A stretch of 64,000 nt of DNA from the NCBI RefSeq assembly GCF_020618775.1, contig NZ_JAESVB010000007.1, positions 62,001 to 126,000 on the forward strand, read 5' to 3'. Source of the stretch: Acidisoma silvae. GTDB lineage: Bacteria > Pseudomonadota > Alphaproteobacteria > Acetobacterales > Acetobacteraceae. Each line of letters starts with the position of its first letter. Position 1 is the first letter of the stretch. The translations under genes and the position numbers were made by a program. Positions 34,051 through 37,330 of the stretch are shown in pieces. The notes under the pieces were generated by a model, which saw only the letters and a program-made list of their open reading frames with translations, had not been told where the DNA came from and did no database searches.

Positions 34051-34185
34051 TCAGTCCTTTTTGGCGCTGCCCTTGGTGGGCAGAGGCGGCGCCTGCTTGA
34101 AGGGGGACTGCGACGGCGCCAGCGTCTTCTTGTCCGCTTTCGGCTTCTTGGGCTCGCGCCCACCTTTGTCACGACCTTTGGCCAT
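34051..34185 (-). CDS. Small lysine-rich protein, 44 residues
   Basis: MAKGRDKGGREPKKPKADKK followed by a Pro/Gln/Lys tail ending GSAKKD. The protein is very basic and probably disordered. Short proteins of the form MAKG(R/K)DKGGREPKKPK occur in alphaproteobacteria and I recognise the pattern, but the role is unknown; nucleic-acid binding is a guess. ATG 34185 has GAGGAG upstream. A longer reading frame extends upstream without a convincing start. Confidence 0.7.
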   Translation of the reverse strand: MAKGRDKGGREPKKPKADKKTLAPSQSPFKQAPPLPTKGSAKKD

Positions 34186-34355
34186 GCTGCGTCTCCTCGG
34201 CTGTTGTCTATCGTGCCGCAGGCGGAGGCGTGCCACCCGCTGCGTGAGGGGGCGCGGCCAATGCTCTGCGCCAGCCATCAGCTGGAACGCCAACCTGTCA
34301 CACGGGCGGTCTGGACGCCATGCCTGTTACAGCAAGACCGGCCGTGTCCGGCGTC

Positions 34356-35327
34356 TCAATGCAGGCGCGGCCCCTTCAGCAGCTGATGACGGTCGACGGT
34401 CGCGATAGGCACGCGCAGCTCGCGCTCGTCGCGCTGCACGGAGAGCGTAACCCTGGCCCCCGCCGTGCCGCGCCCCCGCACCGACCGCCAGAGATGGGCA
34501 AGGCTGAGAATCTCCTCCCCGTCCAGCGCCAGCACCTGATCGCCCTGGCGCAGACCAGCAAGATCCGCCGGGCCACCTTCAGCGACACCACCGATCAGCA
34601 CCCGCTCCTCCTCCTCCATGGCATAGATGCCGAGCCAGGGCGTACCCGGGCGATTGACGCGGCCGTAGCGCGTCAGATCGCCGAAGACGGAATGCAGCAG
34701 ATCGATCGGCACGACCATGTTCATATCGAGCCGGTTTCCCCGCGCGTCGTCCTGCTGCAGGCTGAGCGAGCCGATGCCGAGCAGCTTGGCCTCACGGCTG
34801 ATGAGGGCGGCGCCACCCCAGAAGGGATGAGCGGGCGCGGTAAAAAAGGCGTCGTCGAGCAGATATTCCCAATAGCCCGCGAATTCCTGTCGGCCGACGA
34901 TGCGCGTCTCGATCGCCATGCGACGACCGCCGGCGGAGGCGAAAATGGCCGGCTGGCCGAGCTCGACCTGCGCGCTCTGGCCGAGTTCCATGGCCTGGAC
35001 CTTCAGACGGCCGAGGGGCTGCACCAGGCCGAAGCCGGTTTCCGCGTCATAGGCCAGCGCATGGCCGGGCAGCAGCTGGCCGTCCCCGGCCGTGATCCAG
35101 ATCGTTTCGGCCTCGGCCACCAGATAGCCGATGGTTAGGATCAGCCCGTCATCGCGGATGACGACGCCAGACCCCTCCCGCTCCGTCCCGAGCGCCGAGG
35201 CTGTGAAAGCGTCCGCCGGCGCGGTGACGCGCAGGCTGACGATCGCCGCCAGGGCCGTCTCCAGATCGAAGGCGTAATGCGCCGGATCGGGCTGCAGCTC
35301 GGTGGGGATGGAACTACCCTTAGGCAT
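34356..35327 (-). CDS. HtrA/DegP-like pseudoprotease with PDZ domain
   Basis: 323 residues: a trypsin-like S1C domain (about 45-215) and a PDZ domain (about 230-312; WLGIYAMEEEERVLIGGVAE, GPADLAGLRQGDQVLALDGE). All three catalytic positions are changed. ILTIGYLV replaces ILTNxHVV (His to Tyr68), DAETGFGLV replaces DxxTDLAVL (Asp to Gly98), and HPFWGGAAL replaces NxGNSGGPL (Ser to Trp170). It should therefore not be a serine protease. There is no signal peptide, unlike DegP/DegQ, so a cytoplasmic scaffold or peptide-binding role is possible. ATG 35327 follows GGAG at 8 nt. The reading frame is intact, so it is not a decaying pseudogene by that measure. Confidence 0.82.
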   Translation of the reverse strand: MPKGSSIPTELQPDPAHYAFDLETALAAIVSLRVTAPADAFTASALGTEREGSGVVIRDDGLILTIGYLVAEAETIWITAGDGQLLPGHALAYDAETGFGLVQPLGRLKVQAMELGQSAQVELGQPAIFASAGGRRMAIETRIVGRQEFAGYWEYLLDDAFFTAPAHPFWGGAALISREAKLLGIGSLSLQQDDARGNRLDMNMVVPIDLLHSVFGDLTRYGRVNRPGTPWLGIYAMEEEERVLIGGVAEGGPADLAGLRQGDQVLALDGEEILSLAHLWRSVRGRGTAGARVTLSVQRDERELRVPIATVDRHQLLKGPRLH

Positions 35328-35461: not shown

Positions 35462-37330
35462 TCATGCTCCGCCAAGCACATCCCTCAACTTGCGTGCCAG
35501 TTCGTCAATGGTGAAGGGTTTGGAGAGAAGATGCACGCCCGGATCGATGATGCCGTTGTGAACGACCGCATTGCGCGTATAGCCCGAGGCGAAGAGCACG
35601 CGCAGCCCGGGACGGCGTCGGCCGGCCGCCTCCGCCAATTGGCGGCCGTTCATCTGCGGCATCATCACATCCGTCAGAAGCACCGCGATATCGGGATGCG
35701 CGTCCAGCAAAGGCAGGGCCTCGGCGCCGCTTGCGGCTTCCAGCACCGTGTAGCCCAGTTCCCGCAGGGTCTCGGCCGTCACTTGCCGCACGGGCGCTTC
35801 GTCATCCACGACCAGGATCACCGTTCCAGCCTCGCCCATGGGCAAGCTGGCCGCCAGGCGCGCAGGCTGGTCTGACGCCGCCGCGCCGATATGACGCGGC
35901 AGATAGACCTTCATCGTGGTCCCCTGGCCGATCTCAGAATAGATCTTGATGTGACCATTCGATTGCTTGACGAAACCATAGACCTGCGACAGGCCGAGGC
36001 CGGTGCCTTTGCCGACGCCCTTGGTGGTGAAGAAGGGGTCGAAGGCACGGGCCATGATGTCGGGCTTCATGCCGCTGCCCGTATCGGTAATCGCGACCAG
36101 GACATATTGCCCGGCCCGGCATTCCGGATTGGCGGCCGCATAGGCGTCATCCAGATGCGCGTTCGAGGTTTCGATCGTCAGCCGCCCACCATCCTGCATC
36201 GCGTCCCGCGCGTTGATCGCGAGATTGAGCAGGGCATTCTCCAACTGGTTGGAATCGGCGAAGACCGGCCAAAGCCCGCCGGCCAGCACGGTTTCCAGGG
36301 CAACGGACCCGCCCATGGCGTGACGCAGCAATTCCGACGTGCTGGACACGAAACGATTGACGTCGAGATAGCGCGGCGCCAGGGATTGCTGACGCGAAAA
36401 GGCGAGCATCCGCTGGGTGACGGTGGCGGCATTGCCGGCCGCCTCCTCTGCCGCCTCGATATACCGGGCCAGACCGGTTTCGCCACGATCATGGCGCCGC
36501 TTGAAGACAGCGAGACTGCCGATGATAACCGCCAGCATATTGTTCAGGTCGTGCGCGAGGCCGCCGGCCAATTGGCCGAGGGATTCCATCTTCTGTATCT
36601 GCCGGAGCTGTGTCTCGGCCTGTTCGCGCTGCCGCGTCTGCGACAGAATTTCCGCATTGGCGCGCCGGACTGCCGCCGCCGCCGCCGCCGTTTCTCCGAG
36701 GGCGCGCAGAAGATACCAGATGATCAGGACCGCCGTGGCGAAGAGCACGACGGATGTCACGACAACGATGACGCGCAGCAGGATGGCGTAGGACGCCAGC
36801 CGCTGGTCCAGTACCGCGATGCGCTCGTCTTCCCTGTGGGTGAGGGTCGCGATCTGGCCCCGGATGGCATCCATTTTGTCGATGCCGAGATTGCTGTGCA
36901 CGATAGCGATGGCGCTTGTCTGATTGCCGGCGCGGTAGAGGACGATCGTGGTATTCAGCTCCGTCATCTTTGCCGTCACGGTCGTGGCCAGCGTATCGAA
37001 AGCCTGCCGCGGGGACCGGCTCGCGCCCGCACTGCGTTCGAGCGCCGCGATATCGGCAGACACCTTGCCGACAGCAGCCTTATACGGTTGCAGATAGCGG
37101 GGATCGCCGGTCAGCAGATAGCCCCGCTGCCCCGTCTCGTCATCGACCACCGTTTGCAACAGAGACAGAAGCATCCATTTGCGGTGGTCGGCGGCTTCGC
37201 TTTCGCTGCGCGCGCCATGCGCGACCTGCAAAAAGGCAAAAGCACCGATCGTCATGACCAGCAGCAGAGCAAAAACCGATAGAACGGCGGCGAGGCCGTA
37301 GCGGGATTGCGTTCGCGGAAGCTCTATCAT
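35462..37330 (-). CDS. CHASE3 hybrid sensor histidine kinase
   Basis: 622 residues. TM1 about 13-35, an extracytoplasmic CHASE3 domain about 40-180 (DDETGQRGYLLTGDPRYLQP), TM2 about 182-206, then a coiled linker. HisKA-like region with phospho-acceptor His260 in LAGGLAHDLNNMLAVIIGSL, HATPase with NLAINARDAM (N box), ITDTGSGM (G1) and GKGTGLGLSQVYGFV (G2), and a C-terminal receiver about 500-620 (VILVVDDEAPVRQV, phospho-Asp554 in LLTDVMMPQMNG, KPF). No separate response regulator is adjacent, so the output partner is elsewhere. The signal is unknown. Confidence 0.92.
   Translation of the reverse strand: MIELPRTQSRYGLAAVLSVFALLLVMTIGAFAFLQVAHGARSESEAADHRKWMLLSLLQTVVDDETGQRGYLLTGDPRYLQPYKAAVGKVSADIAALERSAGASRSPRQAFDTLATTVTAKMTELNTTIVLYRAGNQTSAIAIVHSNLGIDKMDAIRGQIATLTHREDERIAVLDQRLASYAILLRVIVVVTSVVLFATAVLIIWYLLRALGETAAAAAAVRRANAEILSQTRQREQAETQLRQIQKMESLGQLAGGLAHDLNNMLAVIIGSLAVFKRRHDRGETGLARYIEAAEEAAGNAATVTQRMLAFSRQQSLAPRYLDVNRFVSSTSELLRHAMGGSVALETVLAGGLWPVFADSNQLENALLNLAINARDAMQDGGRLTIETSNAHLDDAYAAANPECRAGQYVLVAITDTGSGMKPDIMARAFDPFFTTKGVGKGTGLGLSQVYGFVKQSNGHIKIYSEIGQGTTMKVYLPRHIGAAASDQPARLAASLPMGEAGTVILVVDDEAPVRQVTAETLRELGYTVLEAASGAEALPLLDAHPDIAVLLTDVMMPQMNGRQLAEAAGRRRPGLRVLFASGYTRNAVVHNGIIDPGVHLLSKPFTIDELARKLRDVLGGA

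Follow-up and report, generated by a model that had tools for sequence, protein, structure and literature searches.

The gene at 34356 to 35327 on the reverse strand of the window, i.e. the whole stretch of 64,000 nucleotides that was analysed, encodes an HtrA-like protein whose sequence indicates that the catalytic triad is lost, that this loss is conserved in its family, that the gene is under purifying selection and that a signal peptide is lacking. Judged by its sequence and its predicted structure, the protein is an HtrA-type pseudoprotease, a protein whose fold is kept under selection without the triad. The explanation that we consider probable is that of an ancient HtrA pseudoprotease which has been relocated to the cytoplasm, where it would bind a partner through the remodelled active-site region and the PDZ domain. 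The features on which the following account draws are these:

34356..35327, reverse strand: gene of the HtrA-fold pseudoprotease, 323 amino acids, stop included, ATG start
34773..35174, reverse strand: trypsin-like (chymotrypsin-fold) domain, residues 52-185; Pfam Trypsin_2, E 3.8e-14
35124..35126, reverse strand: codon of Tyr68 at the site of the catalytic His, from the family alignment
35034..35036, reverse strand: codon of Gly98 at the site of the catalytic Asp, from the family alignment
34863..34892, reverse strand: RQEFAGYWEY segment, residues 146-155, a predicted hairpin at the place of HtrA loop L3
34815..34823, reverse strand: Phe169-Trp170-Gly171, where GNSGG has Gly-Asn-Ser (site of the former oxyanion loop with the nucleophile), from the alignments
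34404..34637, reverse strand: PDZ domain, residues 231-308; Pfam PDZ_2, E 1.5e-12
34359..34364, reverse strand: Leu-His tail at the C-terminus, typical of the branch that lacks signal peptides

An HtrA-like protein with both domains readable had been recognized in the first-pass annotation, and the Trypsin_2 and PDZ_2 matches confirm this; Trypsin_2 and PDZ models are the only Pfam matches in the 323-residue protein at E values up to 1. The PDZ domain opens with a conserved PWLG (P230-G233), of which W231 is present in 189 and G233 in all 191 of the family members described below. The scores obtained with the NCBIfam HtrA models lie far under the respective cut-offs, e.g. 63.7 against 422.95 bits for DegS. 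In its own genome (5.4 Mb, 82 contigs) the protein is the sole close copy. Four further matches at E 0.001 or better have 27 to 33% identity, and the two that were inspected are HtrAs with GNSGG. An open frame of 272 amino acids on the opposite strand (34320-35138, forward) overlies the gene, with matches found in 177 loci; it is probably a mere shadow of a conserved gene in GC-rich DNA. A promoter and terminator scan at the pseudoprotease gene gave no signal above that of shuffled sequences.

The structure was modelled with AlphaFold2 from 36 alignment rows (mean pLDDT 86.3, pTM 0.85), with residues 163-169 under pLDDT 50. The predicted arrangement is a chymotrypsin fold followed by a PDZ domain, as in HtrA proteins. 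VIA-align superimposed the model on MucD with Z 24.6 over 263 residues (rmsd 5.9) and on the protease domain of DegP (3mh5_A) with Z 22.1 over 184 residues (rmsd 2.7). The high rmsd of the whole chain probably reflects a differing setting of the two domains in the model. All 50 structural matches listed are HtrA-type entries (Z 21.7-24.6), and the best Foldseek match is DegP (E 1.5e-21). Strands at 138-149 and 152-157 give the segment around Trp153-Glu154-Tyr155 (WEY) the form of a hairpin, at the place of HtrA loop L3.

Relatives of the protein are numerous. A contig scan of genomes yielded at least 577, and 80 loci with 51-69% identity were retained. With a limit of E 1e-40, 65 of 289 genomes sampled from the class were positive, and 20 of these had two matches; with a limit of E 1e-30, 35 of 398 genomes sampled from the phylum were positive, of which 33 belong to this class and 2 to a different one. 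Among the nearer genomes 24 of 60 were positive, including all five of the genus, the window genome counted. After removal of loci above E 1e-30 and of identical proteins, 213 tblastn loci were reduced to 191 distinct members, 188 of them complete. Because similarity to the window protein was the basis on which members were collected, with a bias to the Acetobacteraceae and their neighbours, counts among them are not unbiased frequencies. The family is sharply set off from other matches: in 115 class genomes, searched to E 1e-8, the listed matches score either at least 269 bits (family) or at most 92 bits (others), the best 19 first-look candidates having been scored in the larger genomes. The sole exception among the listed matches is a partial one of 118 bits that stops six bases before a contig end.

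A FastTree tree was calculated from the 191 members and 19 triad-bearing HtrAs from outside the family, namely the 16 best-scoring complete ones and three selected lower-scoring ones; a partial family match cut by a contig end (L228) was excluded. The family forms a single clade, whose stem measures 1.36 substitutions per site. Clade A comprises 161 members, among them the window protein; the other 30, two of which branch singly at the base, are collectively called clade B. On sequence grounds, this is a real, conserved and discrete HtrA family without the catalytic residues.

The fate of the catalytic residues was determined with a profile derived from the 19 triad-bearing HtrAs of the class, to which the 191 members were aligned. 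At the His column 189 of the 191 members have Tyr and one has Phe, and at the Asp column 190 have Gly; the remaining member, L204, is partial and does not cover either site. For the Ser column, 171 of the 191 members could be resolved, with Gly in 115, Ser in 35, Ala in 7, a gap in 7, Trp in 4 and other residues in 3, and residue 171 of the family alignment is Gly in 142, Ser in 36 and Ala in 8 members (n = 191). In the window protein the His-Asp-Ser triad is thus absent, with Tyr68, Gly98 and Gly171 at the three sites. It had previously been stated that His, Asp and Ser align to Tyr68, Gly98 and Trp170. The first two assignments stand; the third was off by one, since HMMER comparison with PDB chains, a joint MAFFT alignment and the profile all bring the serine to Gly171 and the asparagine of GNSGG to Trp170, and only 4 of the 191 members place Trp at the serine in the profile. 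Likewise, the oxyanion loop GNSGG is not present, as had been claimed, but the register of its replacement is FWGGA at residues 169-173, with Trp170 in the place of Asn. In chymotrypsin numbering, Trp170 would correspond to Asn194 and Phe169 to the oxyanion Gly193. All 19 HtrAs outside the family retain His, Asp and Ser in the MAFFT alignment and are presumably active; no intermediate with part of a triad occurs among these 16 best-scoring and three lower-scoring proteins.

The loss of classical catalysis is therefore well supported by the alignments. It is very unlikely that the protein has nevertheless remained a peptidase that employs non-canonical residues, such as His167 and Ser187. The two would presumably sit near the old specificity pocket (by chymotrypsin numbering) and are well kept in clade A, His167 in 158 of 161 members and Ser187 in 99%, and Ser occupies the nucleophile site in 36 of all 191 members. 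Yet His167, found in 171 of the 191 members, is present in just 13 of the 30 of clade B, and residue 169, at the position of the oxyanion Gly, is one of Phe, Asn, His and Ser in 151 of the 161 proteins of clade A, with Gly in only 11 of 191 in the profile. Moreover, the classical His and Asp are gone in all members covering the sites, which applies equally to the 31 of 161 clade A members that have Ser at the nucleophile site. His167 and Ser187 could belong to other chemistry.

That the gene is a decaying one without function is scarcely credible, even though all three catalytic residues are lost. dN/dS, calculated by NG86, ranged from 0.040 to 0.234 in 13 pairs, which contradicts decay; in comparison with G657, the nearest relative among the loci compared, the window gene shows 132 synonymous and 25 non-synonymous differences. 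Against four relatives (G657, G655, L006, taken as G656, and G658) the ratios of the window gene are 0.040, 0.234, 0.192 and 0.201, and those of a triad-bearing HtrA of the same genus in the same comparisons are 0.093, 0.207, 0.273 and 0.199, all of them rough, as dS approaches or exceeds 1 in several cases. Selection on the gene is purifying and similar to that on the triad-bearing HtrA. In-frame stops were not seen in the listed matches of the class, phylum and nearer-genome searches, and the gene occurs in all five genomes of the genus. The earlier view that the protein is maintained is upheld by the low dN/dS and the lack of inner stops, and the relaxed selection that would have spoken against it was not found.

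The lost residues have been replaced by a signature of the family's own. Residue 170 is aromatic in 189 of the 191 members (Trp in 177, Phe in 11, Tyr in 1) and His in 2, and it is Trp in all 161 members of clade A. In L211 and L212, the two members that belong to a different class of the phylum, His stands in place of Trp170. W153, E154 and Y155 are each invariant (191/191), as is Gly172, and F149 and Gly151 are found in 190 and 189 members, respectively. Mean column identity in the family is 0.86 for segment 146-156, 0.79 for the loop 163-173 and 0.57 for the PDZ domain; the corresponding values for the 19 triad-bearing HtrAs are 0.55, 0.94 and 0.48. As 163-173 is conserved in both sets, it is segment 146-156 that is special to the family, and since 163-173 is even more conserved in the triad-bearing HtrAs, strong conservation around the old active site does not by itself indicate a new one. 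The PDZ domain, which is better kept here than in the triad-bearing HtrAs, may weigh more than the ranking by conservation suggests.

The conservation of 146-156 and 163-173 above that of the PDZ domain would also fit a cleft that has become a site for a small molecule or a metal, in which case the protein would serve as a sensor or ligand carrier and not as a protein scaffold. A precedent is MamO, which is described in the available part of its source as a repurposed HtrA that binds metal with two surface histidines (PMC4794232), and the resemblance to it would be partial. No His column, however, is invariant among the 191 members; the best is position 167, with His in the proportions given above, so a family-wide metal site based on His is unlikely. 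We regard such a small-molecule or metal site as unlikely overall.

The protein would depart from DegP and DegQ in its location, as the first-pass annotation had proposed when it noted the lack of a signal peptide and placed the protein in the cytoplasm. Counted from the ATG the protein has 323 amino acids and the whole open frame only 328, which leaves no room for a signal peptide hidden further upstream in frame; nor was the N-terminus flagged by the hydropathy window, admittedly a crude signal-peptide test. Without a signal peptide the protein should work in the cytoplasm, and to this extent the sequence bears out the proposed location. HtrAs are known chiefly as proteases of the periplasm or of organelles, and those of the DegP/DegS type are exported and act in the periplasm. 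By the same test, a signal-peptide-like N-terminus occurs in none of the 161 clade A members at the called starts, in two if an upstream extension is read and in a third, L023, with a longer upstream stretch. In clade B it occurs in 20 of 30, to which seven are added if the start is moved upstream (27/30). Genomes with two copies have one of each branch in all 16 cases covered, out of the 20 two-copy genomes of the class. The exported state is probably the older one, given that HtrAs of the DegP/DegS type are exported and that the two basal members have signal-like N-termini; this order is tentative because the stem is very long and the support near the root modest (0.60 to 0.99). One branch, that of the window protein, thus appears to have left the periplasm.

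The two branches also differ in their C-termini. Among the 158 complete proteins of clade A, 134 end in His, a residue that makes up 1.8% of the total, and 110 in Leu-His; in clade B, 23 of 30 end in [ST]-[YFL]. PDZ ligands are hydrophobic or aromatic C-termini, of which the clade B tail is reminiscent. One may then ask whether the protein regulates HtrA-type proteins, itself included, by joining or docking on them with its conserved tail as the PDZ ligand. The branch-specific tails speak in favour of such a regulator, as does the inactive protease domain of plant Deg7, which according to the available part of the source joins in trimerization (PMC3473262). The idea is nonetheless quite improbable: the tails are common by descent, so the counts are not independent events, and the window protein, without a signal peptide, has only cytoplasmic partners within reach and would not meet HtrAs of the DegP/DegS type, which are periplasmic.

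A more elaborate form of the cytoplasmic pseudoprotease that we prefer would take the two branches as a compartment-matched pair of dead HtrAs. In an exported ancestor catalysis would have been lost and loop L3 and the oxyanion loop remodelled to a fixed binding surface formed by WEY and Trp170, after which a cytoplasmic branch arose through loss of the signal peptide; the branch tags, LH inside and [ST]-[YFL] outside, would be built-in PDZ ligands that gate a trimer or dock partners. This proposal is speculative and we attach little probability to it; if it were true, a periplasmic stress-sensing scaffold would have been re-used in the cytoplasm.

The gene neighbourhood is variable. A CHASE3 hybrid kinase is encoded upstream on the same strand (35462-37330) and had been pointed out as a neighbour. 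Among the loci compared, this upstream placement on the same strand is confined to the window genome and G657 (the G655 contig ends before that point), so that a link to the kinase is not supported. A related kinase lies within 2.6 kb in eight other loci, immediately downstream in the same orientation in L100 and L135 and on the opposite strand in the other six, and is also seen in some further loci. Downstream of the pseudoprotease gene there follow an open reading frame of 80 amino acids (34051-34293, reverse strand) and two genes on the other strand, which by their sequences we take to be glnA and glnB; glnA adjoins the pseudoprotease gene in only the window genome, G657 and G655 among the loci compared. 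The product of the 80-residue frame is rich in Lys and Pro, and its last 44 residues have homologues in G657 (95%) and G655 (79%), of the same genus.

Clustering of 196 loci with a simple ORF caller revealed no family-wide neighbour, nor did that of 81 distant loci of clade A together with the 30 of clade B. A gene of the metallo-beta-lactamase fold, a domain confirmed in L022 (1446-2141), shares the strand of the pseudoprotease in 21 of the 161 loci of clade A; in 19 of the 21 its start is estimated at -33 to +41 bases relative to the point where the pseudoprotease match ends, and 4 satisfy a stricter range of -10 to +120. It was rejected as a general partner because its best homologue in the window genome is on another contig, C1. 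In nine loci of one family of the class an alpha/beta-hydrolase gene begins 15-90 bases after the pseudoprotease, for example Abhydrolase_2 at 398-1621 on the reverse strand of L163. Neighbour clusters in the 30 clade B loci comprise Sel1 repeats (5 loci, domain confirmed in L142), GGDEF-EAL (6, L127) and, on the other strand, a UvrD-type helicase (7, L122). Nothing in these neighbourhoods points to a single pathway.

With PDZ retained and the former active-site region conserved, a role as adaptor or scaffold is a reasonable inference from the sequence. Since the same loss is common to many relatives in one large class, the dead enzyme is probably kept for a different job inside the cell. Both the chymotrypsin fold and a single HtrA-type PDZ domain would have been kept, and classical serine-protease chemistry is not expected. 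Tyr68, His167, Trp170 and the WEY hairpin would make the former catalytic cleft a fixed surface to which a protein segment or a ligand binds, and the PDZ groove would take up a C-terminus, perhaps that of a client or of the neighbouring subunit in a trimer. The trimer, the binding and the scaffold function are what we infer for the protein at work.

This family occurs in Alphaproteobacteria, in 65 of the 289 class genomes sampled, and the catalytic His and Asp have vanished from every member that covers the sites. The conserved replacement signature makes the function of a dead HtrA directly testable by point mutation. Among 25 plasmid matches listed, five are annotated as S1C family serine protease and one as signal protein PDZ, the rest being unannotated there; such names hide the loss of catalysis. 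No literature on the pseudoprotease family was found by title or abstract start in open-licence papers, in phrase searches that miss synonyms. HtrA pseudoproteases as a kind are already known. In the literature searched, descriptions of this family, of its signature of replaced residues and of its shift between compartments appear to be lacking.

Among the known cases, the inactive plant Deg proteins, such as Deg16 and the second domain of Deg7, are alike in having HtrA-type domains with mutated triads, where "inactive" in the available part of the source means that at least one triad residue is mutated or missing (PMC3473262). This likeness is drawn from the description given there, and the hosts are plants as opposed to bacteria here (PMC3473262). 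Another known case is MamO of magnetotactic bacteria, likewise an alphaproteobacterial HtrA-type pseudoprotease, with loop L1 off the trypsin consensus (PMC4794232). As far as the available part of that source goes, MamO has His and Asp in place (H116, D149), Thr for Ser and a TauE domain (PMC4794232). The window protein, unlike MamO, has lost His and Asp, and a TauE membrane domain was not found in its 323 residues with Pfam at E values up to 1. With the HtrAs of MEROPS family S1C, i.e. DegS, DegP, DegQ, MucD and HhoA, it shares the chymotrypsin fold and the HtrA-type PDZ domain, and like DegS it has one PDZ domain. It departs from them in that His, Asp and Ser, the GNSGG loop and the signal peptide are gone and in its differing segment 146-156.
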